Virus record (IMG/VR): IMGVR_UViG_3300049629_000450
Coordinates: 1 to 35,131 of that record
Direction: 5' to 3' (one strand)
DNA: 35,131 bases
From: a virus
In this document: piece after piece, positions 980 through 29,620 of the stretch
Layout: each line of letters starts with the position of its first letter
Numbering within the stretch: the stretch's first letter is position 1
Position numbers and translations under genes: made by a program
The notes under the pieces: generated by a model
Seen by the model: the letters and a program-made list of their open reading frames with translations, nothing else
Databases searched by the model: none
Told to the model about the DNA's origin: nothing

Positions 980-1185
980 TATTCTACGTCACAGTCTTCT
1001 AGGAAGTGTTCGAGTACTCGGATTGCTCAGTCTAAGGCTTTACGTTCTGTTATGTCGTAAGTTAGCCTTGGGTTCTCCGCTGTTCTGGAAGATAAATGGT
1101 CCCGGCGTTTCTTTAGTACTTTTATATTATTACGGTTGATTGAGTTGTTGTCTAGATCGCCAGGGTATAGTTGTTCATCATCCAT
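979..1185 (-). pseudogene. small conserved-type phage protein interrupted by in-frame TGA (52 + 15 codons)
   Basis: The ATG at 1185 overlaps the TAA of the primase-helicase gene (TAATG). The frame reads MDDEQLYPGDLDNNSINRNN and continues to ITERKALD, where it meets TGA at 1027-1029. The same frame then stays open for 15 codons (AIRVLEHFLEDCDVE) and stops with a TAA at 979-981 that overlaps the next gene's ATG. The second part reads as a natural helical continuation, as if the TGA replaced a sense codon, for example Trp. TGA is used as a true stop elsewhere in the window (6821, 20710, 32619, 32783), so general recoding is unlikely. Either a nonsense mutation, a sequencing error or local readthrough would explain it. 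If translation stops at the TGA, the product is 52 aa. A close variant of the dispersed motif encodes HLSSRT. Confidence 0.5.
1085..1094 (-). repeat. motif 1 variant
   Basis: One mismatch (TATCTTCCAG). In the TGA-interrupted gene, read as HLSSRT. Confidence 0.5.
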
Positions 1186-8956: not shown

Positions 8957-9078
8957 TAATTAATTGTAGGGTGTATACTGTGCCTTTCGGACTATGATCC
9001 TAACACCGGGTACTACATACCTGTGACCAGCCACCCATCTCATTACTGATCTGAGCCACACTCTCCTACAATTAATTA
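8957..9078 (-). ncRNA. candidate structured RNA closed by a 14-bp stem
   Basis: The arms TAATTAATTGTAGG (from 9078) and CCTACAATTAATTA (to 8957) pair perfectly over 14 bp and are extended by GTGT/ACAC across a 3-base bulge. The first three bases of the 5' arm are the stop codon of the upstream gene. Within the 94-base interior I can draw at least three hairpins: CTCA/TGAG, GGTA/TACC, and GTG-TTAGGA-(TCATAG)-TCCGAA-AGG-CAC with one mismatch. No open frame of note lies here. A terminator follows 42 bases later. I match it to no known ribozyme or riboswitch. The rest of the interval 8867-9075 holds only this RNA, the terminator and the ribosome site of the next gene. Confidence 0.5.
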
Positions 9079-10116
9079 CACTACTTCTACTACTGCTACT
9101 GCAACAGTGACTACCTTGCCCTTGGGGTCTTTAATCTTAAGTTTCTTACCCTTGGCAAGATACTCAACGATTTCAAACTTGGTGGTTTTGGTGTAGCCGT
9201 TTGGCTTTGCCTTGCATTCGTATCCAACCCAAGTAGATGGGTCTTCTTCATCGTACTCTACTGATTCTTCGTCTTCTGATTCTTCTTCTTCGTCATCAGA
9301 TTCTTCAGTATCGTCTTCCTCTGCTTCCTCGTCATCTTCTTCTTCGTCGTCGTCTGCGGGTTTAGACTTGGAAGACTTACTGGATTTGGTAGATCGAGAC
9401 TTACCAGACTTCTTAAAAGGTGGTTCTTCATCTGCTTCGTCATCGGATTCGGTTTCATCAGACCCTTCTTCATCATCTTCGTCTCCCACTCCGTCCTCGT
9501 CATCATCTCCATCTTCTTCTTCTCCTTCTTCCTCTTCAAAGTCTTCCAAGAGTTTGTTTACTCGTACATTGAGTCCTAGTCCCTTACCACCTTGGTAAAC
9601 GCTAAGAGTGATTGAGACTACTGGCTTCTCTGCACGATCAAGAGCATTGAACGTATCGATTGCATCGAGCAGGTCTTCAGGAGTCTTGATGCCCTTGGTG
9701 TTGATGCCGCATCGTTGCATGGTGAAGATGATGTCATCGATAGCCTTATCCTTGCCACGGATACTGCCATCGTTTAACTTTCTATCTTCGATAGTGACGA
9801 TGATACTTGGAGTCTGACCCTTGCCTGTCGATCCTACACAGACAAAATTGAATGCTACGCTAAGAGCAGACTTTCGTTTTGTCTTAGGATCGGCCTTGGT
9901 CATGAACGTACCAATCCGAGTTAGTTTAGCTTGGGTGCTTGCTGTCTTACCTACTTTGTTAAGAGCAAACGCCTTCATTACATCGGCAGTAGTTGTGTAT
10001 CCGGTTGGTGCATCTTTCTTTGCAGCGTTGGACAGTTCTTTCGAACTTTCCTTCAATGCTGCTAGTGCTGCTTTACGATCATCGCTACCACCGGAAGTTT
10101 TTTTGTTTAGAGCCAT
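9076..10116 (-). CDS. probable ssDNA-binding protein with acidic low-complexity tail
   Basis: 346 aa. Residues about 1-205 form a globular domain (ALSVAFNFVCVGSTGKGQTP, SIIVTIEDRK, VVSITLSVYQGGKGLGLNVR), consistent with an OB-like ssDNA-binding protein. An extremely Asp/Glu-rich stretch of about 95 residues is broken by a basic patch (KKSGKSRSTKSSKSSKSK), followed by a small C-terminal beta domain (about 300-346). Phage ssDNA-binding proteins often carry acidic tails that contact partner proteins, though this one is unusually long and internal. The gene lies directly after a Sak4-like ATPase, a pairing common in phage recombination modules. The function is inferred from layout and context. 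An AATTCAGCAATGTC motif precedes its AAAGG ribosome site. Confidence 0.55.
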   Translation of the reverse strand: MALNKKTSGGSDDRKAALAALKESSKELSNAAKKDAPTGYTTTADVMKAFALNKVGKTASTQAKLTRIGTFMTKADPKTKRKSALSVAFNFVCVGSTGKGQTPSIIVTIEDRKLNDGSIRGKDKAIDDIIFTMQRCGINTKGIKTPEDLLDAIDTFNALDRAEKPVVSITLSVYQGGKGLGLNVRVNKLLEDFEEEEGEEEDGDDDEDGVGDEDDEEGSDETESDDEADEEPPFKKSGKSRSTKSSKSSKSKPADDDEEEDDEEAEEDDTEESDDEEEESEDEESVEYDEEDPSTWVGYECKAKPNGYTKTTKFEIVEYLAKGKKLKIKDPKGKVVTVAVAVVEVV

Positions 10117-17233: not shown

Positions 17234-17600
17234 TTAAGAATTTTACTTTCAGTACTGCGAATAGAATTATTGGGGTGTAGATTGGTTTGAAGAATGGTAT
17301 TCCTAGAACTTTACAGTTAGTTCGGATGTGTCCTATTATAATGTCTCTATACTTCCAGCAATAGTCAATAGGCCAAGAATTAATTATTTGGCTAAATGCT
17401 TCACAGTTGCCGCAGTGCAACTTTTTCTGGAAGAAAAATAGTTCGTACAGTTTCTTTAGGATTAGTAGAACGTAGTGTATCTCGCTACCTACTCCGTATA
17501 GATTAGGGAACCCCGCTTCTGCTAGTAGGTGGCGATGTTTACGATAGTTTAGTTTACCGGAGTCTTTAAGTTGTTGTAGTTGTTCTAGTGCTTCTTTCAT
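17172..17600 (-). CDS. second member of the GVG..LH...C.C...N.W family
   Basis: 142 aa from ATG 17600, chosen because it overlaps the TAA of the poly-serine gene as TAATG; an in-frame TTG at 17612 is less likely. It shares with the next gene the order GVGSEIHYVLLIL, CGNCEAFSQIINSWPIDYC, RDIIIGHI, and LGIPFFKPIYTPIILF, but lacks the Cys-rich N-terminus. The two look like products of an old duplication. The segment between GVG and the Cys pair is longer here and contains FFFQKK, encoded by a dispersed-motif copy. Function unknown. Confidence 0.65.
   Translation of the reverse strand: MKEALEQLQQLKDSGKLNYRKHRHLLAEAGFPNLYGVGSEIHYVLLILKKLYELFFFQKKLHCGNCEAFSQIINSWPIDYCWKYRDIIIGHIRTNCKVLGIPFFKPIYTPIILFAVLKVKFLNEYMPILHKQPLQTNNQSDS
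17422..17438 (-). repeat. motif 1 copy, full 7-bp arms
   Basis: In the second GVG-family gene, read as FFFQKK (frame c). Confidence 0.9.
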
Positions 17601-17965
17601 TATGGTTGACAATCAGATGTAGGGTCTGGGTATACTCTCACCCAAGCTGAACCGTTCCAGTCCCAAGAGCATACACAGATGACTAACGGAGAAAAACTAA
17701 TTACACATGCAAACTCGTATCTAGTACCTCCACCAGGAGCAGGAGGAGTTACAGGAGCGAATGGAGTACAATCGCAGAATAGCCCACCGGATGGGGAACT
17801 GCTGGATGGTGATGAAGATGAAGGGGACGAAGAAGACGGAGACGAGCTAGATGATGGGGACGACGGAGATGAGCTACTAGAGCTTAATGAACTAGAAGAA
17901 CTGCTGGAACTGGGAGAACTGCTGGAGCTAGATGAGCCACAGCAGCACCAAAAAAATAATAGCAT
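17600..17965 (-). CDS. poly-serine linker protein with Cys/Trp C-terminal module
   Basis: 121 aa. A short hydrophobic N-terminus with three cysteines (MLLFFWCCCG) precedes about 50 residues of almost pure Ser with regularly spaced Pro (SSSSP repeats). The C-terminal module has CDC, FACVISF and CVCSWDWNGSAWVRV. The N-terminus could be a lipoprotein-like or membrane anchor. The gene directly upstream ends with a similar Ser-rich linker and Cys module, so both probably belong to the virion tip or surface. I recall Ser-run plus W-x-W-NGSAW modules from planctomycete-type genomes. No enzymatic motif is visible. Confidence 0.6.
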   Translation of the reverse strand: MLLFFWCCCGSSSSSSSPSSSSSSSSLSSSSSSPSSPSSSSSPSSSSPSSSSPSSSSPSGGLFCDCTPFAPVTPPAPGGGTRYEFACVISFSPLVICVCSWDWNGSAWVRVYPDPTSDCQP

Positions 17966-17969
17966 AATT

Positions 17970-19460
17970 TTACTCGATGTTTATTCCTAGACAGTTTCTA
18001 CCGCTAGACCATACCCCACCTAAGTCGTTACATGCTGCTTGAGTCATGATACCTTGAGATGGTGCTCCTGGCGATCCGTATGTACAACACCCTAGTTTAG
18101 ATGAGGCAGAACTAGAAGATGATGTACTTGAAGTAGTTGGGCATGGACCACTAATGATAATGTATTCACCGTTATAGGTTCTTGCTACGTAACAGCTTGT
18201 GCCTGCTTTGTAAGCACGCACTAAGTTTAATGGGTCGTAAACTATTTGTACTGGATCGACGATAGTAGCTAGGTTCATTGGGTGGTAGATGTTAGCTAAG
18301 CATATAGGTAACGCTCTGTCAGTCAATAGGGTAGCAACAAAAATAATGTCATTAGTTGATTGATCTAATAATTCAACTTTTGGCAGTTCCCATGGCATTG
18401 ATTGAAGAGTAGTAGTGAATCCTCTTGCATCGTATGCGTAAGTTATTTTTTGTATGTTGTTGGTTATTGATTGGCTGCTAACTCCACGTAGCACTATGTT
18501 GATGTACGAAGAGAAACGGTTTACGAAGTTTTGTTTAACTGAATCTAGGAACCCAAGGATGTACGCATTGGATGCAGTTGGGGTAGCTTGATCTACTAGG
18601 GAGAATGGATTGGTGAACGATACCGTTTCTGACGTTACTAGGTCAGTGATTTTATTAAGTACGTTGGATGGTGCTATAGAGTACTCTTCGCTAAGATCAG
18701 TTGTTAGATCATAGTAGAACTTCATAACTCCAAATTTATATTCCAGAGTAGGGTAATTAATCTGAAGTTTTAGTTTACGAAGTGTAGTACCAGTATCGTT
18801 AAATAGAATTGCATCTTCATTAAGAGTAGCTGGATTGAATACTGCTGCTGTGATGTCAGCTTTACCAGTATTGGTTTTATTTGGGTAAGCTGTAAGGAAT
18901 TGGCTATTAGCTATAAATGCAAACAAGTCTCGTAATAGTATGTTCTTATAGTTAATGTACTCGTTGAACTTAGCTGGAGCAACTAGTGCTGACGAAGTTG
19001 CAGTGAATAGAGTGTCTATAAGACCACTCCACGATAGATGATAACTAGAGTAGTAACTATCCGTAGAGCAGTCTTTCATGTTGTAGTCTACTATGTTTCT
19101 GTCTAAGTAGAAATTAATACATAGAAGTCTAATTCCAGCTACGTCTACAGATGAAGTGCTAGTAGAGTTAAATGCTTCGATACTTGAAATAACTACGTTC
19201 TCAAATGAAACAGTTTGAATTCCATCTGATATAGAGAACTTGCAGGGATCGCCAGGAGTTATAGATGCTTCTGCCATTGCTGCTAGAAGGGATGCTTCAG
19301 ATACTAGAATGCATCCCTCGCTACGATGTGGATACGCCGCCCAAGTAAAATAGTTCACTTTAGGTAAAGCGTACCCACAATTAGTTCTAGTATGTTTATC
19401 TAACGGTAAATGATTTAGTGCTTGTAAAGATTCATCATTAGGTAACGTCAGTGTAAACAT
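17970..19460 (-). CDS. putative tail-tip or virion-associated protein, 496 aa
   Basis: Not a family I can name. The first 420 residues alternate beta and helical segments with many Ser, Thr and Asn, like phage tail or baseplate proteins. The C-terminus carries a Ser/Thr-rich linker (CPTTSSTSSSSSASS), then KLGCCTYG, ACNDLGGVWS and NCLG, a small Cys-containing module. The gene follows the portal and precedes the poly-serine protein, with ATG overlap at 19460. A receptor-contact or tail-tip role is an inference from position and from the terminal module. Confidence 0.5.
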   Translation of the reverse strand: MFTLTLPNDESLQALNHLPLDKHTRTNCGYALPKVNYFTWAAYPHRSEGCILVSEASLLAAMAEASITPGDPCKFSISDGIQTVSFENVVISSIEAFNSTSTSSVDVAGIRLLCINFYLDRNIVDYNMKDCSTDSYYSSYHLSWSGLIDTLFTATSSALVAPAKFNEYINYKNILLRDLFAFIANSQFLTAYPNKTNTGKADITAAVFNPATLNEDAILFNDTGTTLRKLKLQINYPTLEYKFGVMKFYYDLTTDLSEEYSIAPSNVLNKITDLVTSETVSFTNPFSLVDQATPTASNAYILGFLDSVKQNFVNRFSSYINIVLRGVSSQSITNNIQKITYAYDARGFTTTLQSMPWELPKVELLDQSTNDIIFVATLLTDRALPICLANIYHPMNLATIVDPVQIVYDPLNLVRAYKAGTSCYVARTYNGEYIIISGPCPTTSSTSSSSSASSKLGCCTYGSPGAPSQGIMTQAACNDLGGVWSSGRNCLGINIE

Positions 19461-20713
19461 TATGATAGCTCTGGGTTGGTTTCTAGTTTTTCAAGGGAGT
19501 TTGTCGGCTTCATCTGGTCTTGAGTCTTGATAGGATTAACTCTAACTATTTTGTACTTAGAATTTAATCCGAATCGAAGTTTGGTCAAGTACTTGATGCA
19601 TTGATTATTAAACGCATGGACTGCATTATCTGCAATACCAGATAGCGTAGAATAATAAACACTCATAGGAATTTTTCTTCCTGTTGCTGAACCCATACCA
19701 TTGCTAGATGAGGATTCAACTACTTCAGGTGGAATACCAAGTCCTTCAAGTATTTCTATTCGTAGTGCTTCTGGGTACTCCATCAAGCCTTGGGGAGTTG
19801 CATTGGCTTGTGGTGGAATGTAGTCCCATGCTGGCTTACCACTAGCAGGATCGACAGTAGATGGGATTGCTCTACCACCACCAGTTTTCATATCGGCAAG
19901 AATCTTCAATGCCATGTCTCTATGGTCGATGATGTTGCCTGATGCATCTTTGTAAGTACCAATAGGGAATCGTACTTCACCACCATCGTAACTGTTCTTA
20001 TGGAACCAAGTTCTACGAATGTCTCTTGCTCCATAAGGTGCCCATTGTTCATGGAACGATGTGAAGCAATCAAACAATAGTGATTGTCCATATAGTGCAT
20101 TTACAATCTTTCTATGAACACCCCAAAGTAGTTTAGGTCCGAACAACTTTATTTCTTTGTTGTTGTTATGGACTTGTTCAATCTGAGCACCAACTAGTCT
20201 GGTCGTGTCTTTTATAATCAACGGTCGTGAGTGTAGAGGATGATACCAAATTAAATGTTTGTATTCAAGGGACTTAGGATCGCTTGGATTTTCTAACTCA
20301 TAAATTGGTTGGCAACATGAGTATCCCCATTCGAGCATGGTTAGGTACTCTTCAAGTCCATTAGCCCAGAATGCATTTAATGTGTCGAGTACATATTCAG
20401 ACAATGCAGAATTATCTGACTTAACTGTGTATACGAATTGGATTCCTTCTTCTCGTAAAGTTTGTTGAACGAGAGGGTCTTCCGCATCTTTTTCTGGAAG
20501 AAAAATAGAGAAGGTTTTAATTGGGCCTTTAATCAACTTCATGCCGTAGTTTACTCTAGGGTCACGCATGATTGTAGGAACGTAGTAGATCGACCATATA
20601 GGAAAGTTATGTCCGTATACGGGATCAAGTGATGTGATCGATGTAGGAGAGAATGTGATAGGGGCACTATCTTGTACCGCTAGCATCATCTTTTCGGTTA
20701 CTGGAATACTCAT
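19460..20713 (-). CDS. portal protein
   Basis: 417 aa. The features of DUF935/gp29-like portals are present: an N-terminal MRDPRVNYGMKLIKGPI, a mid region with EYLTMLEWGYSCCQPIYEL, YHPLHSRPLII, LLWGVHRKIVNALYGQSLLF, and the C-terminal EALRIEILEGLGIPPEVVES. The portal forms the dodecameric ring at the head vertex through which DNA is packaged. ATGA overlap joins it to the chaperone-like gene upstream. Placement after the tail genes is unusual. FLPEK (motif 1) and NSALSE (motif 2) are encoded by dispersed-motif copies 81 bases apart. Confidence 0.8.
   Translation of the reverse strand: MSIPVTEKMMLAVQDSAPITFSPTSITSLDPVYGHNFPIWSIYYVPTIMRDPRVNYGMKLIKGPIKTFSIFLPEKDAEDPLVQQTLREEGIQFVYTVKSDNSALSEYVLDTLNAFWANGLEEYLTMLEWGYSCCQPIYELENPSDPKSLEYKHLIWYHPLHSRPLIIKDTTRLVGAQIEQVHNNNKEIKLFGPKLLWGVHRKIVNALYGQSLLFDCFTSFHEQWAPYGARDIRRTWFHKNSYDGGEVRFPIGTYKDASGNIIDHRDMALKILADMKTGGGRAIPSTVDPASGKPAWDYIPPQANATPQGLMEYPEALRIEILEGLGIPPEVVESSSSNGMGSATGRKIPMSVYYSTLSGIADNAVHAFNNQCIKYLTKLRFGLNSKYKIVRVNPIKTQDQMKPTNSLEKLETNPELS
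20400..20413 (-). repeat. motif 2 copy
   Basis: In the portal gene, read as NSALSE, 81 bases from a motif 1 copy. Confidence 0.75.
20489..20505 (-). repeat. motif 1 copy, full 7-bp arms
   Basis: In the portal gene, read as IFLPEK (frame b). Confidence 0.9.
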
Positions 20714-20961
20714 CGCTTAGGTTTTTCCATGCTGTTTAGTAGGTACATATTTTCTGCTTTTTCGGCTAGCTCAGGATCATCGTATGCCAACATAACTAGA
20801 GTCTTGATAGTATCTTTGTTGACACTACGCATAGACTCTAGTTTTTCTCTGGCTTGCACGTTCGGTATTACTTCGTTGAGGAGTCTGATGTGGAAGGGCT
20901 TGAAGTCGATGGAGTTGCCAATCCCTGAATAATATCTGAGTAGGTAGGCAAATTCAGACAT
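20710..20961 (-). CDS. -1 frame extension of tail-chaperone-like protein
   Basis: The 83-codon frame overlaps the end of the 119-aa gene by about 94 bases in the -1 frame. Its only start, ATG 20961, directly follows nine A residues and has no ribosome site. A -1 slip on the A9 run would join residues 1-89 of the upstream protein to this frame with no break. The encoded part is charged and helical (AREKLESMRSVNKDTIKTLV, DPELAEKAENMYLL), unlike the Ser/Thr/Pro tail of the zero frame. This is the arrangement of gpG/gpGT tail assembly chaperones. Confidence 0.6.
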   Translation of the reverse strand: MSEFAYLLRYYSGIGNSIDFKPFHIRLLNEVIPNVQAREKLESMRSVNKDTIKTLVMLAYDDPELAEKAENMYLLNSMEKPKR

Positions 20962-21227
20962 TTTTTTTTGAGTTCAATATTCTGTAGTGATACAGCTTGA
21001 ATCAACATTGCAGCAGCAGTAGGAGATAGGTCAACGTCATAGGCTTCTTTAAATTTATCTACAAACACTGGACGATAGGGATGTGGTCCTTCTCGTTTCA
21101 GTTCTGCTGCTTCTCGTTTGGAGTCTAGGTACATATCGTAGACTTCCATTACGTCTAGTCTCTTACCGATTGGTTGGAGAACGATTGTGCAGTCATCTTC
21201 GCTTGGTAGGTTGAATACGTTACTCAT
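20868..21227 (-). CDS. tail assembly chaperone-like protein (short form)
   Basis: 119 aa, starting by TAATG overlap with the 793-aa tail gene. The N-terminal 89 residues are well ordered (DDCTIVLQPIGKRLDVMEVY, RPVFVDKFKEAYDVDLSPTA). After the LKKK encoded at 20961-20969 the zero frame continues as a low-complexity TPSTSSPSTSDSSTK tail. Short and long products from one start are typical of the chaperones that guide tail tube assembly around the tape measure. In most phages this pair lies before the tape measure; here it lies after. Confidence 0.6.
   Translation of the reverse strand: MSNVFNLPSEDDCTIVLQPIGKRLDVMEVYDMYLDSKREAAELKREGPHPYRPVFVDKFKEAYDVDLSPTAAAMLIQAVSLQNIELKKKCLNLPTYSDIIQGLATPSTSSPSTSDSSTK
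20961..20973 (-). promoter_or_regulatory. slippery A9 run for -1 frameshift
   Basis: On the minus strand CTC is followed by AAAAAAAAA and TGT. Read in the zero frame it is L-K-K-K-C; after a -1 slip it is K-K-K-M-S-E. Runs of A of this length favour slippage by ribosomes and also by RNA polymerase. Confidence 0.55.
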
Positions 21228-23608
21228 TATACAAATTCCGATTGTCGTAAGTGTTTGAAGGAAATGTTAGTACATGTTGGGTCGCCCTGAATTGCATAAG
21301 TCATGCTCCACTCTGCTTCAAAGACAGGCATATCGGCAGATTGAGCTACTTGGCGTTGTGACCAGTATTGCTTACCAACACGGTATACGTCAAGTACAAC
21401 TGGAGATACTGAACTGATATTTTGAAGTCCACCAACTACAGGCATAGGGATTCTATATCCTATTCGAACAGCTTTACCAGTAAATTTTAAGTAGTAGGTT
21501 GGTTTTCCATGAGCTACTACTAGATGATCTGAGTACCTAGAAGCATCTGGTTGTCCTGACACTGCTCCTGTTGCAGTTATTTTATTGTTAATAGTCATAG
21601 CAGTATTGTACCTATCACTTGGATTGCCCGATGCTGTTGGGTCTAGCTCTCCTTTAATTTCTGATAGTGGTGCTGCTTGGATTGTCGGCAAGTATGAAGC
21701 ATTGGATACTTCTACTAGCTCGAAATTAACTTTATAGTCTACCCATGATTGCGACGGGTCTAGGTTTTGCATCCAGGTAGATTGAGTAGTTTCTTTACCA
21801 GGGTATGGGGTTGGAGTAGGAGTGCCGGAAGTCACAGGAGGTTTTCCAGTTACTTCATTAGTAGGTTGTGGATTGGTTGGGGTACTTTCTTGGAATACTC
21901 CTAAAGGATGTTCTACATAATGTTTTTGTCTTCTATGTGCTGCGTAGTAATCTGGCTTTTGAATATTTGCAGCAGCAGGGGTAATTGAATTGCCAGTTTC
22001 AGGAGGACCGTTCCATGTAGGTAAAGCAGTTCCTCTATCATTATTAATTGTTGGAAGATTTAGATTAGATGGGTCAAAAATAATATTGTAATCTGCCAAT
22101 CCTAGTCCGTTATATCCTACTGCATTAGTAGATATTCTGTCGTGTAGTTTATTTGCACTTAGAATCTTATTCCAAGTTTGCGGTGTCCACGTAGATGGAT
22201 GCGTTGTAGGAGTTTGACCGTCTGGTAAATCCGCTGAGTTATCATTGTTTCTAAACAATGATCTTACTCTTGTGAATAACCCTGTTTTAGCAAACAAGTC
22301 ACTTAGAGAAGTTAGAACAATGTAACGTAATGAGATATCTACTTTGTTTTCATGTAGTTGTTCAGTGATAGAAACATCAGTAAGAAAATGCTTTGGAGTT
22401 AGTTTCTTTCTTGCTTGTGGATTAGCTGCTTGAGCATCTGTACCAGTTAATGGTCTTGCAGCGTCTACCTCATCTTTAACCTGTTTTTGAACATCACCTA
22501 CTGCAACTGTAGAATTTAGTATTCGTTGTTTAACTAGAACAAGCATTGCTACATAAGCCCATCCTTTCCAGTAGCCTGGAGCAACTGTAAATGATCCTTT
22601 GAATGAACTAGCCCAAGATAGGAAACCTTGGGGCTGAGTGTATGAATCAGATGTAGTAAGTGTAGATTCGACTGTATGAGATGCAGTGTAGTTAATAATA
22701 CGTGGAAACTTACCGCGAGGGTTAACTTGCTCCGTGTCTACAATAACATACTCAAGTTGACGTTGAGTTTTATTGTAAACGTATCGTTGCTTACGAGTAA
22801 ACCCTAAAGGTAGATAAGGTTCAAAGTATCTGGCTAAATCTTGAGCTATTGATCTTCTTGAAGTTGGTTCGTTTAAGTATTCTTCAACTTTGTTTAAATC
22901 CGTATAGGGAGCTGCTTGTCCTGGAAGTTTAGCGTAGTTTTTCAACTCTGTTTTAGTTTTAGTATTAATAGAAGAAAACTCAATTGTTCCTTTCAAAGTT
23001 AGTTCAATAAAACCTTCTGTATTAATATCTACTTCTTGTTCTTCAGTAACCGATCTAATATACGCTTGCCAATCCCATTGTGTATTTTGAATTTGAGGAT
23101 TAGCAGGGATTCTATACCATTCAACACCTACGGTATCATTAGCTGCCAGAAGGTTATCTGTAACGTTATTGTCCGTTAATAGCGTGTACCTATTCTGAGT
23201 ATGAAATACACATCTCCATCTACACCTAACTGCCTTGTTACTAGCCAAAGGTTCCCAAGTAAGAACTTCGGGCTGACAGTCCTGCCCACCACCAAAAGGG
23301 GTTTCAGCCATTTTGTCTTCAAAGTCTGTACTATTTCCCATCCCTCTGTATATTAATTTAATACTTTTATTAGCACAAAGTAGTGCATCACGTATTCTGG
23401 AAATATCCCAATCTACAGAACCATCTGTAAGGCTTTGTACTATTTGGCAAGTCTCCATAGTGATTATGAATTCTACTTCCAAAGTATTTCTGTGGTATTT
23501 AATTATATTACCACCATCATCTTTAACAGCTTCGGTATTCAAAGTTGCTTTTGGGAAATTGCGAAACTTATAACCGTTGTATTCTATTTCATCGAATCTG
23601 CATGGCAT
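21227..23608 (-). CDS. large tail (distal or baseplate) protein, 793 aa
   Basis: Directly after the tape measure, the usual place for distal tail and tail-hub proteins. It is rich in beta segments, Asn, Thr and Pro, with two low-complexity Pro/Thr stretches (around TPTTHPSTWTPQTW and PTNEVTGKPPVTSGTPTPTP). The first 220 residues (FRNFPKATLNTEA, WDISRIRDALLC, RCRWRCVFHTQNRYTLL) look like a beta-sandwich domain, and the last 200 another. No hydrolase motif is evident. Start and stop overlap or abut the neighbours. The exact structural role is inferred from order only. Confidence 0.6.
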   Translation of the reverse strand: MPCRFDEIEYNGYKFRNFPKATLNTEAVKDDGGNIIKYHRNTLEVEFIITMETCQIVQSLTDGSVDWDISRIRDALLCANKSIKLIYRGMGNSTDFEDKMAETPFGGGQDCQPEVLTWEPLASNKAVRCRWRCVFHTQNRYTLLTDNNVTDNLLAANDTVGVEWYRIPANPQIQNTQWDWQAYIRSVTEEQEVDINTEGFIELTLKGTIEFSSINTKTKTELKNYAKLPGQAAPYTDLNKVEEYLNEPTSRRSIAQDLARYFEPYLPLGFTRKQRYVYNKTQRQLEYVIVDTEQVNPRGKFPRIINYTASHTVESTLTTSDSYTQPQGFLSWASSFKGSFTVAPGYWKGWAYVAMLVLVKQRILNSTVAVGDVQKQVKDEVDAARPLTGTDAQAANPQARKKLTPKHFLTDVSITEQLHENKVDISLRYIVLTSLSDLFAKTGLFTRVRSLFRNNDNSADLPDGQTPTTHPSTWTPQTWNKILSANKLHDRISTNAVGYNGLGLADYNIIFDPSNLNLPTINNDRGTALPTWNGPPETGNSITPAAANIQKPDYYAAHRRQKHYVEHPLGVFQESTPTNPQPTNEVTGKPPVTSGTPTPTPYPGKETTQSTWMQNLDPSQSWVDYKVNFELVEVSNASYLPTIQAAPLSEIKGELDPTASGNPSDRYNTAMTINNKITATGAVSGQPDASRYSDHLVVAHGKPTYYLKFTGKAVRIGYRIPMPVVGGLQNISSVSPVVLDVYRVGKQYWSQRQVAQSADMPVFEAEWSMTYAIQGDPTCTNISFKHLRQSEFV

Positions 23609-23619
23609 TATTTAATCTC

Positions 23620-25596
23620 TTATGGTAAGAATGGAACATTGTCGTCTAACTGATCCATTTGGTTTTGTACATTGTTGGTTGGTTTAGGTCTGTTTAAGTT
23701 AGCTAGGTTAGTAGCAAATGCAGCAAATGCTGACATCCAACTACCAGACCTTAAATACTCTAGTATACCAGAAATCTGAGCAGATATAGCACTGGATATA
23801 ATCGTGAGTAGACCTACTACTTGAGTCATCAATGGTAACAGTGGTCTTACAATCTCTAACGCTTCTCTATAGAAATTAATTTGAAACTGTGTTCCTGCAT
23901 CGTATAGTTCTGCTAACTCTGCACCAACACTTTCACCTACTGCAATATTTTCCTCCAAGAAAGCTAATTGCCGGTCTACATTAGCCTGCATTAATTCTGG
24001 AGAGAAAGCCATTGCTTGTCGGGAAGTGTTATCAGCTATCTGGTATAAGTAACTTACCATCTGAGCGAATTCTTCGATAGGTATAATGTCTGCAATTGTC
24101 TCACCGATACGACTACCTGCAAATGCTCCAGGCAATCCACCTAATGCAAAACCGATTGCTGAACCAGTTGTTCTGCCAACTGCTGTTGCTGCATTGCCTG
24201 CTTTCTCCCCGATTGATTCAATATACTCGTTAGGATTAATTCTTTCTGGCCTAGTAGCCTTCATGTAATTCTTCAAATCTGGAACTGCAAAACCGATTAA
24301 AGCTGCTCTAATAGCCATCATAGGTTCAATGATTGCTGAAGTGACTTCAGACATAATCATGTGGATTGGAATTTTACCACTACCGCCACCACCATTTCCT
24401 TGTAATGACGAAACATTATTATTCGCTGGATTTAAATAACTAGGAGGTAATGGTGGTTTGTTTCCAGGTTGGAATTTACCAGGAACGTTAATCTTTGGAG
24501 CATTACCAAAATTTACTTTGCTGTAATCGCCACCAGTAGCGGAGAAAATAGCTTCAATTTCTTCATCGCTCAGTCCATGCTTAGATACTGGTACGTTATC
24601 TTGGAAGTCTTTGAATGCATTGGCGTAGACTCGTCTAGCGTTTTGCATTGTAGCGTCTCGGTTAGAATTTAAATAACCTTGAGCCATACTGAAAGCATAA
24701 CCCTTAGCTACTTCTTCTTTTTGTTTGTCGATGTAGGAATCAAATTCTTTATTAAAGTCAGATACAAGTTTTTCTACTCGTTTCTGTTCTTTCATCCCTT
24801 CAGCTATCTTACGTTCTGTATCACCCTCATCGAATCCAGCTATAGCGAATTTAGTAGATTCAGTTTGTAGCTTATCTACGCTTTCACCAATGTACGAAGA
24901 TACATTATCTCGCATTGAATTTAACTGAGATTGAAAATTTAGTAATTCATTGTATCTAGGGTCTTCAGTCAAACTCGATCCTTCTTCCATAGATGCTTCT
25001 AAGCTACGCATCTTCATTTGAGTTTGAGCAAACAACATATCAATAGCATTGAACATTGTAGTTTCAATGTCATTGATATTAGCTAATTGTCTTTCGTTTT
25101 CTTTATCTACTAACGGCATCAAGTCGTCGGGGTTTTCTAATCTTGATGCTTTGTTTTTTAATGTGTCGAAATACGGATTTAATTGAACAGCAGCGTTTCT
25201 AAACTCTTTTGAGTTGATTGTACGATCTAAGTTTTCAATACGTTGTTGAAATACTAGATCGCCTGTACCTGTATCAGTATTAAACTTTAATTGAGAGGAT
25301 TGCTCAGGGGTAATGTCAGGTGCGGATAGTAGGTCATCGTAACCTTGCTTGGACTTTTGTTCTTCGGCAAACTTCTGTAGTGCCTCTTCCATTGCCTCTT
25401 GTTGCTCTTGAACGAACTTAGCATTATCCGCAGCAGCTTGGTCACGCTTTGATTCTAAGAATGCTTCTAGCTGTTCGTCCGATATTTGCTCATTGATTAA
25501 TTTATCTATATGAGCTTGTGCTTCTTTTTTGTTGTAATCGTTGTACGGGTTTCCATCATCCGCAGGGTTGACATTTAAATTAATGTCTATAGCCAT
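23620..25596 (-). CDS. tape measure protein
   Basis: 658 aa from ATG 25596 (AAGGAC just upstream); a longer frame to 25638 would start inside the terminator hairpin. Residues 1-380 are highly helical and charged (coiled-coil-like, many Glu, Lys and Gln), then a Pro/Gly/Asn linker (NKPPLPPSYLNP, GNGGGGSG). The C-terminal third holds hydrophobic segments, MMAIRAALIGFAVPD, VGRTTGSAIGFALGGLPGAF and VVGLLTIISSAISAQISGIL. Helical repeats with membrane-like stretches are the hallmark of tape measure proteins, which set tail length and enter the host membrane. A modest size suggests a tail near 100 nm, using the common rule of about 0.15 nm per residue. Confidence 0.8.
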   Translation of the reverse strand: MAIDINLNVNPADDGNPYNDYNKKEAQAHIDKLINEQISDEQLEAFLESKRDQAAADNAKFVQEQQEAMEEALQKFAEEQKSKQGYDDLLSAPDITPEQSSQLKFNTDTGTGDLVFQQRIENLDRTINSKEFRNAAVQLNPYFDTLKNKASRLENPDDLMPLVDKENERQLANINDIETTMFNAIDMLFAQTQMKMRSLEASMEEGSSLTEDPRYNELLNFQSQLNSMRDNVSSYIGESVDKLQTESTKFAIAGFDEGDTERKIAEGMKEQKRVEKLVSDFNKEFDSYIDKQKEEVAKGYAFSMAQGYLNSNRDATMQNARRVYANAFKDFQDNVPVSKHGLSDEEIEAIFSATGGDYSKVNFGNAPKINVPGKFQPGNKPPLPPSYLNPANNNVSSLQGNGGGGSGKIPIHMIMSEVTSAIIEPMMAIRAALIGFAVPDLKNYMKATRPERINPNEYIESIGEKAGNAATAVGRTTGSAIGFALGGLPGAFAGSRIGETIADIIPIEEFAQMVSYLYQIADNTSRQAMAFSPELMQANVDRQLAFLEENIAVGESVGAELAELYDAGTQFQINFYREALEIVRPLLPLMTQVVGLLTIISSAISAQISGILEYLRSGSWMSAFAAFATNLANLNRPKPTNNVQNQMDQLDDNVPFLP

Positions 25597-25610
25597 TTTT
25601 AAGTCCTTAT

Positions 25611-25650
25611 ACGAAAATAACCTAGCCTCTGAAACCAAAAGCTAGGTTAT
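25611..25650 (-). terminator. terminator or attenuator between tail tube and tape measure genes
   Basis: ATAACCTAGC pairs with GCTAGGTTAT (10 bp) around a 14-base loop on the minus strand, followed by TTTCG with the stem's own final bases giving a short T tract. It would let the abundant tail tube be made in excess over the tape measure. Confidence 0.65.
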
Positions 25651-25673
25651 GTGTTTTGGTTATTAAGTAGTTA

Positions 25674-26231
25674 CTATGCTACAGTAAAGTAACTCATTGG
25701 GGAAGAGCAAATTGTTACAGCAGCAGGAGCAGTAGGGGCAGTGTCAGGACTTGGAAGAATCAAGATAGTAACAGGTAGCTTTCTATGTCCAGCGTTGAAC
25801 CGGATAGAAGTAGCTTCAGCAGCGATTACAGCCCTAGGGTAAGTAATACTCGCTACAGCACCAGCAGCAGGACCACCGACTAACGCAGCAGTAGTACCAC
25901 CGCAAGGAGTTAGAACAAGTGGCTTAGCATAAGTACTAAGCAATTGACCCATACCACCAACCTTACCGTATTCGCCTACTTCGAACAATGTTCCATCGTT
26001 ATCAGCATCGTAAGGCCAAATTAAATCTCGTACTCCAGGCATGTTTACTTCATACAGTACTGTACGAATCATCATGTCGATTCCACGCACAACACCATCA
26101 AGCATACCTTGATAATGGTCAGCACGAATTTCTTCATAGATACGAGTGGTGATTTCTTCGAAACCATCTTCAGTAGTTCCCAATGCTTTACTATTGAAAG
26201 TTGCACTGAAGGCACCAGAAATAAATGTCAT
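25674..26231 (-). CDS. major tail tube protein (probable)
   Basis: 185 aa. It begins with FISGAFSATFNSKALGTTEDGFE, a strand-strand pattern with an early TEDGFE that is common in tail tube subunits, then IRADHYQGMLDGVVRGIDMMI, VNMPGVRDLIWPY and a beta-rich Ala/Gly/Thr C-terminal half. The gene stands immediately before the tape measure and is followed by a terminator, as expected for a highly expressed structural gene. GAGG lies about 9 bases before the ATG. Motif 1 lies 50 bases upstream of the start. Confidence 0.65.
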   Translation of the reverse strand: MTFISGAFSATFNSKALGTTEDGFEEITTRIYEEIRADHYQGMLDGVVRGIDMMIRTVLYEVNMPGVRDLIWPYDADNDGTLFEVGEYGKVGGMGQLLSTYAKPLVLTPCGGTTAALVGGPAAGAVASITYPRAVIAAEATSIRFNAGHRKLPVTILILPSPDTAPTAPAAVTICSSPMSYFTVA

Positions 26232-26280
26232 AACAGTAATCCTCTTTAATTAAATTGTGATCGCCCACAGAGCAGTTTCT

Positions 26281-26290
26281 CTGGAAGAAA
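26281..26290 (-). repeat. motif 1 copy, intergenic
   Basis: Between the Cys-pair gene stop and the tail tube start, outside any frame. Confidence 0.85.
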
Positions 26291-26297
26291 AAAAGCA

Positions 26298-26648
26298 CTA
26301 AACTTCTTCGTACTCTATGGATTCTTGGTAGGCTTTTTCAGTGAGTTCTTTTACTTTCTTTTCATACCAGTCTAAACAACGTTTACAGGTAGTTGCTTCT
26401 ACCAATCGAGTTGTTACAGCAGGTAGTTTTTTAGCACCACAAGCAACACCCCATCTAGCCCCAATTGGTGATGGTAATGGTGATGGTCCTGATACGTGAA
26501 CGATAGGTTGTTTATCTAGTTCTTTTTCGACAACGAGTAGGCATATATTAACTAATGGTTGAAAATTAGCGTTCTCGCAACAGACCGCTTTTGAAGCGGA
26601 TTGAGCATGAACTCGTTTTCGGCATTTTGAGCATTCGAATGGATACAT
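26298..26648 (-). CDS. Cys-pair (zinc-binding-type) protein, 116 aa
   Basis: An N-terminal CSKC followed by VCCEN, and a C-terminal TTCKRCLDWYEKK helix, give two Cys pairs that could hold a zinc ion. The middle is Pro/Gly-rich (VSGPSPLPSPIGARWGVACG) with KLPAVTT. It sits between tail genes, so it may be a minor virion or assembly factor. I do not know the family. AAATTCCGCAATGTC (motif 2) comes 12 bases before the ATG, with AAAGG between them. The 142 bases upstream of it hold two motif-2 copies in opposite directions and a GCGGA/TCCGC hairpin. Confidence 0.55.
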   Translation of the reverse strand: MYPFECSKCRKRVHAQSASKAVCCENANFQPLVNICLLVVEKELDKQPIVHVSGPSPLPSPIGARWGVACGAKKLPAVTTRLVEATTCKRCLDWYEKKVKELTEKAYQESIEYEEV

Positions 26649-26660
26649 TTTGCACCTTTG

Positions 26661-26674
26661 GACATTGCGGAATT
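26661..26674 (-). repeat. motif 2 copy before the Cys-pair gene
   Basis: Ends 12 bases before the ATG and forms half of a GCGGA/TCCGC hairpin. Confidence 0.7.
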
Positions 26675-26767
26675 TTCTCCGCTTGTTTTGGTCGATTTTG
26701 GGCCAGTTTGGGGAAACCTCGTTTTTCGAATTTGCGATTTTCCCAGGGATTTTGATACGTTTTAGTT

Positions 26768-26781
26768 AATTCTGCATTGTC
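26768..26781 (+). repeat. motif 2 copy, reversed, intergenic
   Basis: Just after the tail-terminator-like stop; with flanks AGTTAATTCTGCATTGTC it matches the 27347 copy at 17 of 18 bases in the opposite direction. Confidence 0.75.
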
Positions 26782-26790
26782 CGAGTGGTA

Positions 26791-27405
26791 CTAGCACCCC
26801 AGATTTGCGAGCAGTTTTGGTGCCAGAAAAACGGTCGTGAGAGTCATTCCGGCAGGTCTTGGTTCATCGTCGATTGATTGGGTACTTTTGAAGTACTCTG
26901 GGTACCTCAAAACAGGACTAGCATCAGTACTAATATATCTAATTCTATCTACTATACTTATATTATTATTATTAATAATATTGGCAATATTGGTAGGTAA
27001 GTGTAATATAGTACTATTCATACTAGTATTCATATTACTTATTATATTACTATTACTATTATTAATAATAATAATAATTAGATCGCGTAGCAGATCTATA
27101 CTAGTACTACTATTACCATTCCTGCCAGGACTGTACAAGTACTCCGGCAAACGATCTTTCGGAATCTCTCTACTCTGAACACCAACAGTGATACCAAAAG
27201 TTAATTGATCCGAATACACCTGCCCAGTTATGTTCAACGGGTTAGTTCTATCAATCGGGTGAATCGATACGAACCTTTGCCCAATAGCAGGATGGACCGC
27301 CGAACCATCTTCACTAATTACAATCTCATTTGGCTTTACCAATTCTGACAATGCTGAATTAACTAGTACATCTTTAACAGCATTGAGCACAGCACCAATG
27401 TACAT
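26791..27405 (-). CDS. tail-terminator-like protein with AT-rich Asn/Ile segment
   Basis: 204 aa. The order (N-terminal helix AVLNAVKDVLVNSALSEL, then strands VSIHPIDRT and SDQLTFGITVGVQSREIP, then LLRD, then a C-terminal MTLTTVFLAPK) fits tail terminator or tail completion proteins, and the gene sits between the morphogenesis gene and the tail genes. Residues about 110-155 are almost only Ile, Asn, Ser and Met (LIIIIINNSNSN, NIANIINNNNIS), encoded by an (ATT/AAT)-rich stretch. The gene is flanked by motif-2 copies in opposite directions (26768 and 27347) and a reversed motif-1 copy at 27411. Confidence 0.5.
   Translation of the reverse strand: MYIGAVLNAVKDVLVNSALSELVKPNEIVISEDGSAVHPAIGQRFVSIHPIDRTNPLNITGQVYSDQLTFGITVGVQSREIPKDRLPEYLYSPGRNGNSSTSIDLLRDLIIIIINNSNSNIISNMNTSMNSTILHLPTNIANIINNNNISIVDRIRYISTDASPVLRYPEYFKSTQSIDDEPRPAGMTLTTVFLAPKLLANLGC
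26935..27085. repeat. AT-rich trinucleotide-like low-complexity stretch
   Basis: Runs of ATT/TTA/AAT with little G or C, for example tattattattattaataat, lie within the tail-terminator-like gene. The frame is kept. The composition is far from the rest of the window. Confidence 0.7.
27347..27360 (-). repeat. motif 2 copy
   Basis: Near the start of the tail-terminator-like gene, read as NSALSE. Confidence 0.75.
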
Positions 27406-27408
27406 AAC

Positions 27409-27425
27409 TTTTTCTTCCAGAAAAA
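27409..27425 (+). repeat. motif 1 copy, reversed, intergenic
   Basis: Directly before the tail-terminator-like start, in the opposite direction to transcription, with full arms. Confidence 0.85.
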
Positions 27426-27439
27426 AGGGGGTGTGGGGG

Positions 27440-27949
27440 TTATAGACCCTTCGATCTTATAAACGCTTTGAACTTCGGTAGACTGGCTTGTACAGCATCA
27501 TTAACTAAACTCTCCATATCATCGATGATGACAGGTCGTACTTGATCTACTGCATCAATGTACGGAACTTTAGTTTCAAAGTAAATTGTTGTTGTGTTTA
27601 CTTTAACTCGCTGTCCAGGACCAGCAACATAAACACCCCCTGAAAACTTATTAGGCTTTAGAGCAATCATTAACTGACGAGTACGAATGTTGATAGCGAC
27701 TTTGCCACTGTACAACAAACGCTTCCTTCGTTTGTACTTGATTGTCTTCGGAGCTAATGGTTTCCATTTAACGCCGTAGGAGTCTGTTTGCCCTTTTGCT
27801 TTTTTTAGAAACTCTGTGTAATTTAATTTAAGAAGAAAATACAAGACAAGATTATTGAAGTATAGGGATAGTTCGGTATTCTCTTGTCTTGTAGTTTTTC
27901 TTTTTAAAGTGATTACGTTTTTCCAGGGTTGTGGTTTTACTATAGCCAT
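27440..27949 (-). CDS. virion morphogenesis / tail completion protein
   Basis: 169 aa from ATG 27949; an in-frame TTG at 27964 is the reported longest start but is less likely. DSYGVKWKPLAPKTIKYKRR (about residues 60-79) is the G-x-x-W-x-P-L....T motif of the Mu gpG / phage virion morphogenesis group, followed by a basic stretch and beta strands (GVYVAGPGQRVKVNTTTIYF, PYIDAV). These proteins help join head and tail. The gene lies between the head-completion and tail-terminator-like genes, the usual place. Confidence 0.7.
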   Translation of the reverse strand: MAIVKPQPWKNVITLKRKTTRQENTELSLYFNNLVLYFLLKLNYTEFLKKAKGQTDSYGVKWKPLAPKTIKYKRRKRLLYSGKVAINIRTRQLMIALKPNKFSGGVYVAGPGQRVKVNTTTIYFETKVPYIDAVDQVRPVIIDDMESLVNDAVQASLPKFKAFIRSKGL

Positions 27950-28443
27950 GGAAAAGGAACCCAACCAATTAAGTTAGTTTGGCCTGCTACAGTCTTCGTT
28001 GAATTAAGTAAGTCTACTCGTACTGGAGTAAATGGGAACCTATTATCAGTTCGATAGTTCTGAACCATTATTGGTGGTGAGTTAGATACAGGAAGTTCTT
28101 GAATAAAATACTCACCATTAATTAACTTATCAAAATCATCTAGTGCTTCAAAGTGCATAGACTCATAAATCGACACGTTACCCCTTCGAATGGAAAGGTA
28201 GTAACATGCGATTATTGTAACTCTATGTCTCACCCATGGTGAATTGGCTAAATCACTATCTGCGAACAGTTTATTTAATTTAGCCTTTGCAGTTCCAGTA
28301 GCTCTTTCACGTACTTCTAATCTGACATCAGCATCATCTGATTGGTCATCAACGTGCCATTCAACACCTGATACAGATATTTGCCGATCCATCTCTTCAT
28401 CCGAAGTGAACAGTATGGGATATCGAGTACCTTGAAGAGTCAT
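27940..28443 (-). CDS. head-completion (DUF1320-like) protein
   Basis: 167 aa. The helical middle, WVRHRVTIIACYYLSIRRGN, preceded by a helix rich in Ala and Lys (ERATGTAKAKLNKLFAD), is like the Mu gp36/DUF1320 head-tail connector group, and the gene directly follows the capsid gene. The C-terminal strand region ends FPFTPVRVDLL...WVPFPWL. It overlaps the next gene by 10 bases. Confidence 0.6.
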   Translation of the reverse strand: MTLQGTRYPILFTSDEEMDRQISVSGVEWHVDDQSDDADVRLEVRERATGTAKAKLNKLFADSDLANSPWVRHRVTIIACYYLSIRRGNVSIYESMHFEALDDFDKLINGEYFIQELPVSNSPPIMVQNYRTDNRFPFTPVRVDLLNSTKTVAGQTNLIGWVPFPWL

Positions 28444-28444
28444 G

Positions 28445-29620
28445 TTATAGACCTGTTCTCCAAACGTTGGCGTAGAATACAGCCTTTGGCATCATCAACA
28501 ATGGAACGTACTTGGTTAGGAACTTAGCTTCGAATCGAGCAGGGTCGATATCGCGTGTTCTCCAAATCTTCAAACCAGATACTAGTTGAGGATTCGACAT
28601 TACGTTCTCAGCGATGATTTCCTTACCAACTGCATAACCAACCCAATCACGAGAAGGCTCAGGAACAATCATTGCGTATCCATCAGGGATGTATCGCACA
28701 AAGTTGTTAGCATCGATCTGAGTTTCTTCGTCAGGAATCTGGATACCAGTTACGTAACCTTCGTTGTAGATGTGGAACACGTACTGAGGTAGTGCTCTAA
28801 ATACAACTGTGTACTGACCACTGGTCATCGGGGTATCGCCTTGCACTTCACGATTGGTGAGGCTATCGAAAATTCGATAAGCAGTACCACCAACAGCAGC
28901 AAGTTTAGTATTATTAAACAATGGAACAGCAGTGTTACCATTCATAATAATATGCTTTACTGGGTATCCACTGATACGCGATGCAAGAACACCCATTTCC
29001 ATCAAGTGATCTAGTACCGGAGCATTAGATAAATTCCATGCTTCACCAGAAGCGATGATACCGCCAATGTCCCCAGTGTTGCCAGCAGGAATCTTATAGT
29101 TATTGGTAGAGATAACATCAGCATCAGTAGTTTGGCAAAGTTCATACCCATCACCTTGAGGCTTGAATCCGAATCCACCTTTAAACATATGAGCAACCAT
29201 CCACTCAATGCTATTGTCCAACATGGACTTAACGTGAGCAAGTTGCATTGCGATGTAGGACTGACCCATAACATCTACTTCAGTATTCAAACCAAAGCTA
29301 CCCAATGGGCGACTTCGGAATACTTCATTATCGTAGAAGTCAATCGAGGGGTGCATTCGATACAGCGTAGCAAGCTCAGTTGCTACAGGCTTACGTCCAA
29401 CCTTAACAGGTGGCGAGTTAGGAGCAGACAACGGAGCAAGTGTCCGAGTTGCTGCATAGATGTCGTAACCAAATGTATCCATGTCGGGTGACATAGTTGG
29501 TACATCGGTAGGACTAATCTTAAAGAAGCGTTGGAAGAACGAGGCAGGGGTTTGTAGACGCTTAATTACTTTAAGAATCTGTCCTGGCCTCATCAATGAG
29601 TCGTATGACATTCCTGGCAT
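28445..29620 (-). CDS. major capsid protein, lambda gpE type
   Basis: 391 aa, about the expected length. The order fits the Phage_cap_E fold: FFQRFFKISPTDV, PVKVGRKPVATELATLYRMHPS, a helical spine LAHVKSMLDNSIEWMVAHMFKGG, VLDHLMEMGVLASRISGYPVKHIIMN, strands in QYTVVFRALPQYVFHIY, and the C-terminal LLMMPKAVFYANVW. It forms the icosahedral shell, with the decoration protein encoded just upstream. GGCATGGTAAATT-type spacing leaves no strong ribosome site. A GACACACTATAGAAAG stretch lies 9 bases upstream of the ATG. Confidence 0.88.
   Translation of the reverse strand: MPGMSYDSLMRPGQILKVIKRLQTPASFFQRFFKISPTDVPTMSPDMDTFGYDIYAATRTLAPLSAPNSPPVKVGRKPVATELATLYRMHPSIDFYDNEVFRSRPLGSFGLNTEVDVMGQSYIAMQLAHVKSMLDNSIEWMVAHMFKGGFGFKPQGDGYELCQTTDADVISTNNYKIPAGNTGDIGGIIASGEAWNLSNAPVLDHLMEMGVLASRISGYPVKHIIMNGNTAVPLFNNTKLAAVGGTAYRIFDSLTNREVQGDTPMTSGQYTVVFRALPQYVFHIYNEGYVTGIQIPDEETQIDANNFVRYIPDGYAMIVPEPSRDWVGYAVGKEIIAENVMSNPQLVSGLKIWRTRDIDPARFEAKFLTKYVPLLMMPKAVFYANVWRTGL

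Follow-up and report, generated by a model that had tools for sequence, protein, structure and literature searches.

Overlapping reading frames between the tail and portal genes

The window, the whole stretch of 35,131 nucleotides analyzed here (IMG/VR record IMGVR_UViG_3300049629_000450), carries its structural genes on the minus strand (19460-29620) in an unusual module order of capsid, connectors, tail genes and, after the tape measure, the portal. A probable tail tube protein of 185 aa (25674-26231) returned no significant profile match and was assigned from its conservation and its position directly before the tape measure gene. The probable tape measure protein of 672 aa (23620-25638) is homologous to, or stands in place of, a 621-aa protein in relative L058 that matches tape-measure PHROGs (E 2e-5). 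A large protein of 793 aa follows (21227-23608), and the portal is a 417-aa DUF935/Mu-like protein (19460-20713); all four genes are on the minus strand. No large terminase was recognized in the window.

Between the genes for the 793-aa protein and the portal lie two overlapping frames, also on the minus strand. The zero-frame open reading frame (ORF; 21227-20868) encodes 119 aa, the putative short product, comprising an N domain (residues 1–89) and a tail of 30 residues rich in Ser, Thr, and Pro. The boundary between N domain and tail is a run of exactly nine A's (20969-20961, minus strand) that is read in frame 0 as CTC AAA AAA AAA TGT and whose last seven positions form the heptamer A AAA AAA (20967-20961), a canonical X XXY YYZ site in the frame required for a -1 shift. 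The C domain lies in the -1 frame and extends for 85 codons from the heptamer to a TGA stop (20967-20710, minus strand); within it, an 83-aa ORF (20961-20710) opens with an ATG that takes the last A of the run and is preceded by no Shine-Dalgarno sequence. A slip of -1 over the last seven A's would fuse 89 residues read in frame 0 with 83 read in the -1 frame (..IELKKK + MSEFAYLL..), yielding a 172-aa product with the predicted junction peptide ..IELKKKMSEFAY... The run by itself is unremarkable, since one A9 run was observed in the window against a mean of 1.4 in shuffled sequences. The AlphaFold2 model of the 119 residues (mean pLDDT 88.7) places a beta hairpin with three helices in the N domain, and the C domain is predicted to be helical with modest confidence (pLDDT 71).

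An earlier note on this DNA had described the 119-aa and 83-aa frames as overlapping in -1 phase and as joined exactly by a slip at the run, with a second frame that lacks a ribosome site and a zero frame that turns into low-complexity Ser/Thr/Pro sequence past the run. Each of these descriptions is borne out at the coordinates given above. Its statement that the second frame has only one ATG holds near the 5′ end of that frame, where there is no other, but not further downstream, where additional in-frame ATGs occur.

Several other features of the window are worth recording. A 999-aa primase/helicase-like ORF (1185-4184, minus strand) contains an apparent intein with an HNH endonuclease that sits inside the Walker A motif (GPPS / C...VVHN / CGKS); relatives L024 and L053 do not have residues ~377-631. 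A short ORF at 17600-17965 (minus strand) is nearly pure Ser with Pro and begins Cys-rich (MLLFFWCCCGSSSS...), as does an ORF of the same kind in L072 (8754-9197; MSLPMVICCCTSSSS...) that occupies the same place after the post-portal gene. Between recombination genes, a 346-aa protein (9076-10116, minus strand) is rich in Asp and Glu over a long part of its second half and is possibly a single-strand DNA binding protein.

Conservation of the slip site and selection on the -1 frame

Named phages include no near kin of the window. Its portal shares 22-24% identity with those of Bacillus phages, and searches of named phages with the 119-aa and 793-aa proteins found no relatives. Single-sequence look-ups in viral contigs with the 119-aa protein, the portal, the 793-aa protein, and the polymerase returned almost nothing. 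We used the portal gene as an anchor for locating relatives in IMG/VR. Scanning viral contigs with a degenerate DNA pattern that encodes the peptide E[GA]LGIPPE of the portal identified 52 loci, of which 28 had related portals by tblastn (the best ones at 21-46% or more identity); several of these 28 also contain genes related to those for the 793-aa protein, tape measure, tube-like protein, connectors, and capsid of the window. A search with a portal alignment yielded 49 IMG/VR loci, 40 of them distinct over the 500 nt preceding the portal, and the same alignment gave no matches among genome contigs. The carriers are a large clade of uncultured tailed viruses of bacteria.

Immediately ahead of the portal, a profile of the C domain matched in 47 of the 49 loci (E < 1e-9) and weakly (E 0.036) in the remaining two, L088 and its twin L105. 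In 38 of the 40 distinct relatives, the N-domain ORF and the C-domain frame overlap in -1 phase and meet at an X XXY YYZ heptamer; in the other two, a single frame contains both domains. These 38 and the window form the set of 39 sequences considered below. The heptamer lies within 3 nt of the start of the C-domain profile match in 37 of the 39 (window included), a nearness that is partly built in because some profile rows had been cut at the heptamer; in L101 and L104 it lies 24-30 nt before the profile start.

Seven types of slip site occur in the clade, comprising A9 (26 of 39), A8 (4), A7 (3, L058 and L077 among them), AAAAAAC (1), TTTTTTC (1), GGGAAAC (2, L080 and L084), and GGGTTTT (2), such that runs of 7-9 A's account for 33. 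When mapped on a portal tree, the site classes change at least six times, each time to another known slippery type. As judged from these sequences, slipperiness is retained although the type of heptamer varies along the tree. In the portal genes and the 793-aa gene of the window, which served as background, there were 40 in-frame heptamers (one with six A's) per 13,290 codon positions; the presence of an in-frame junction heptamer in every relative of the -1 type is thus beyond chance.

The -1 frame is typically devoid of start codons near the junction. Between the upstream -1 stop and the 15th codon past the heptamer, ATG is absent in 36 of the 39 sequences, and ATG, GTG, and TTG are all absent in 26. 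The window is one of the three with an ATG in this stretch, and at the same position its near relatives carry ATC, GTC, TAC, TTC, and similar codons (Ile, Val, Tyr, Phe). The comparison indicates that the ATG of the window is not a start.

Substitutions in close pairs provide a separate line of evidence, one that is unaffected by the cutting of profile rows at the heptamer. At the heptamer, the periodicity of substitution ceases to follow frame 0 and follows frame -1 instead. In the pair L060/L061, there are 20, 7, and 41 substitutions at frame-0 positions 1, 2, and 3 before the heptamer; past it, counts at -1-frame positions 1, 2, and 3 are 2, 1, and 6 in the overlap and 8, 4, and 20 beyond, and other close pairs show the same pattern. 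These counts indicate that the -1 frame is under selection, and the zero-frame tails stay short throughout. Since third-position substitutions follow the -1 frame within the overlap, the zero-frame tail is a shadow of that frame, which accounts for its low complexity and its lack of conservation.

Natural joins of the two domains were also identified. In L105 (5391-5939, plus strand; twin L088), both domains reside in one 182-aa ORF, a natural in-frame fusion in which hhalign, with this single sequence as target, placed the N profile at residues 10-98 (E 8e-5) and the C profile at residues 92-162 (E 9e-6). The contig of L105 belongs to an isolate-type IMG record (2710723518). In L068 (IMGVR_UViG_3300037882_001479; ~1100-1120 of the upstream region), the domains share a single frame because the run is A10 instead of the A9 of its close relative L069. 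This is either a real variant, which would need slippage to make the short form, or an assembly error.

Two other accounts of the overlapping frames were weighed against these data and rejected. The 83-aa protein could be the product of a separate gene that starts at the ATG fused to the run, which the window does have; that this ATG lacks a Shine-Dalgarno sequence, that relatives carry Ile, Val, Tyr, Phe or other codons at its position with no ATG in 36 of 39, and that one ORF of L105 covers both domains make this very improbable. Homopolymers are error-prone, and the single ORF of L068 with its A10 run could be taken to mean that a sequencing or assembly error has split one ordinary ORF in the others. 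However, independent contigs share the same -1 layout, including those with sites that are not homopolymers, the zero-frame tails are short, and selection acts on the -1 frame, such that the likelihood of error is close to nil.

Collectively, these sequence comparisons suggest that the two ORFs are almost certainly one gene with a programmed -1 frameshift. The earlier note's proposal of such a shift on the A run is therefore strongly supported, by the conserved layout, heptamer, and missing second-frame ATG and by the switch in periodicity. The conservation of the run that it had called for checking holds for the slippery heptamer, which 38 distinct relatives have at the corresponding position, with A9 in 26 of the 39 sequences, and a search for relatives that lack a slippery site and have two separately started genes found none.

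Ribosomal and transcriptional slippage

A shift at these sites could be made by the ribosome or, on A9, by RNA polymerase, in which case mRNAs with one extra A would be read into the C domain. Bacterial RNA polymerase slips efficiently on nine A's or T's, as in the dnaX gene of Thermus (PMC5009743), and exactly nine A's are present in 26 of the 39 sequences; these 26, the window among them, thus carry the run of about nine or more A/T that marks a transcriptional slippage site, and the A10 of L068 is the DNA equivalent of an mRNA with one extra A. The other 13 carry no such run. They have A7, A8, or mixed heptamers (GGGAAAC, GGGTTTT, TTTTTTC, AAAAAAC), at which polymerase slippage is unlikely and tandem tRNA slippage is standard, and all 13 heptamers sit in the frame required for a ribosomal -1 shift. 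Because these 13 sequences are without A9, and because GGGAAAC and GGGTTTT fit tandem tRNA slippage only, ribosomal -1 slippage is best supported for the clade, and transcriptional slippage in its place is unlikely. Since RNA polymerase slips well on A9, the commonest state here, it may contribute in A9 members such as the window. Both mechanisms are known from dnaX, where the E. coli site A AAA AAG is ribosomal and the nine A/T of Thermus are transcriptional (PMC5009743). The A-rich slip sites of dnaX are of the same kinds as those described here, but its products are cellular polymerase subunits unrelated to the proteins of this clade.

Signals of stimulatory elements at the sites are weak. 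The window has neither a stimulatory hairpin downstream of the slip site (z about 0.3) nor an upstream Shine-Dalgarno stimulator, and an internal Shine-Dalgarno sequence is absent in most members. Across the clade, downstream folding is in weak excess, with a mean z of -0.6 to -0.8 versus -0.28 in controls (p 0.01-0.06, uncorrected for kinship). Strong hairpins are present in L073, L077, and L078 (z -3.2 to -6.3), and a hairpin shared by L060, L061, and L066 is retained in L062 via a paired change, as read by eye.

The probable two-form gene in the tail module and beside the portal

The order of genes in the clade is a tube-like gene, the tape measure, a gene of 580-790 aa, the frameshift gene, the portal, and a large gene. 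The frameshift gene follows the tape measure and the counterpart of the 793-aa gene in every locus where those are in view. This position, after the tape measure and a large gene and beside the portal, had struck the earlier note as unusual; it is constant in the clade and unlike that in lambda. The gap between the tube and tape measure genes, measured in 27 loci, is at most 108 nt in 20 and 224-398 nt in seven, and it is too small for a canonical two-domain chaperone. In one of the seven larger-gap loci, L090, an 82-aa ORF (998-1243, plus strand; MSYGRFDNRISWLFARG...IRNSWSDKEMESRAAR) lies between the tube-like gene and the tape measure.

Xu, Hendrix and Duda reportedly described, in 2004, the tail assembly chaperones gpG and gpGT of lambda and their counterparts in long-tailed phages, which are reviewed in PMC5009743. 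As in lambda, a short zero-frame product and a longer -1 product would share an N-terminal part inside the tail module, a canonical heptamer lies near the end of the first ORF, and the second frame has no start of its own. In contrast, the lambda genes are located between tube and tape measure, whereas those of the window clade come after the tape measure and a further large gene and immediately precede the portal, and similarity of sequence or profile between the two is undetectable. Both domains gave only chance-level matches against Pfam, PHROGs, NCBIfam, PDB, and viral folds, and hhalign found no match to lambda gpG, lambda gpT, or Mu gp41, each a single-sequence target. The best viral fold match of the N domain was A0A6J5RH87, an unnamed protein from an uncultured phage (E 0.06, prob 0.99); the empty fold search with the C domain means little given the modest confidence of its model. 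Frameshifting of the G/GT type is widespread in long-tailed phages (PMC5009743), and in phiCbK-like Caulobacter phages the chaperones gp93/gp94 use the -1 sites AAAAAAC and GGGAAAC (PMC3556154). Both sites also occur in the window clade, although the Caulobacter phage gene directly precedes the tape measure gene. In Bacillus Andromedavirus (Blastoid and kin), which has the nearest cultured relatives of the window portal (22-24% identity), the portal instead follows the large terminase and no such frameshift gene was seen before it.

By analogy with gpG/gpGT and from its context, with a probable tape measure gene two places upstream and too little room ahead of that gene for a two-domain chaperone, the gene is probably the tail assembly chaperone of the clade, produced in two forms by -1 frameshifting. 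We infer that most ribosomes would stay in frame 0 through the A run and terminate behind the short, unconserved tail to yield the 119-aa protein, and that a fraction would slip back one base on A AAA AAA to make the 172-aa protein with its helical C domain. The short form would most likely coat the tape measure protein, and the less abundant long form would recruit tail-tube subunits. Since neither domain matches known families, folds, gpG, gpT, or gp41, the proposed role is one of working like these chaperones rather than of membership among them; the earlier note's assignment to the gpG/gpGT type thus stands for the two-form layout and gene context and not for profile, fold, or profile-profile similarity.

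The location of the gene also invites a role on the head side, in which the same two forms would serve head or portal assembly as portal chaperone, scaffold, or neck part, with the frameshift setting their amounts relative to the portal. Chaperones encoded next to the portal are a plausible gene type, the C domain is directly before the portal in all loci examined, and in about 25 of the 39 sequences there is overlap or direct contact between the C-domain stop and the portal start, which rarely has a Shine-Dalgarno sequence. In the window, the stop (TGA) and the portal start (ATG) overlap as ATGA (20713-20710, minus strand), with no Shine-Dalgarno sequence recognized before the latter. The nearest portal ATG lies between 16 nt before and 3 nt after the stop in those approximately 25 sequences, a count that is favored by our having taken the portal start as the ATG nearest the C-domain stop; a four-base Shine-Dalgarno match precedes 13 of 39 portal starts versus 25 of 39 N-domain starts. 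However, adjacency to the portal is partly built in, since the relatives were found through the portal, and wherever the tape measure and the 793-aa gene are in view, they just as consistently precede the pair. Two-form -1 products are, moreover, a hallmark of tail chaperones, and no other gene of the tail module can fill that part. A head or portal role is accordingly possible but doubtful. Less probable again is an assembly factor in two forms that has no kinship with known tail chaperones and whose -1 frameshift would additionally gate the synthesis of the portal. Because only shifted ribosomes would end at the ATGA and the portal start is without a Shine-Dalgarno sequence, slippage would couple the output of portal to that of the long form.

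For a tail chaperone in this position, there are consequences for annotation. Frameshifting of the G/GT type is regarded as typical of the gap between tube and tape measure, which is where annotation searches for it, and a whole clade of uncultured viruses would keep its two-form gene elsewhere, in protein families that are absent from libraries. Annotators thereby gain a new profile and a new place to search. The natural set of slip sites in the clade, comprising homopolymers, mixed heptamers, an A10 run, and an in-frame fusion, may be used to ask which ratio of short to long form is required and whether polymerase slippage can replace ribosomal slippage.
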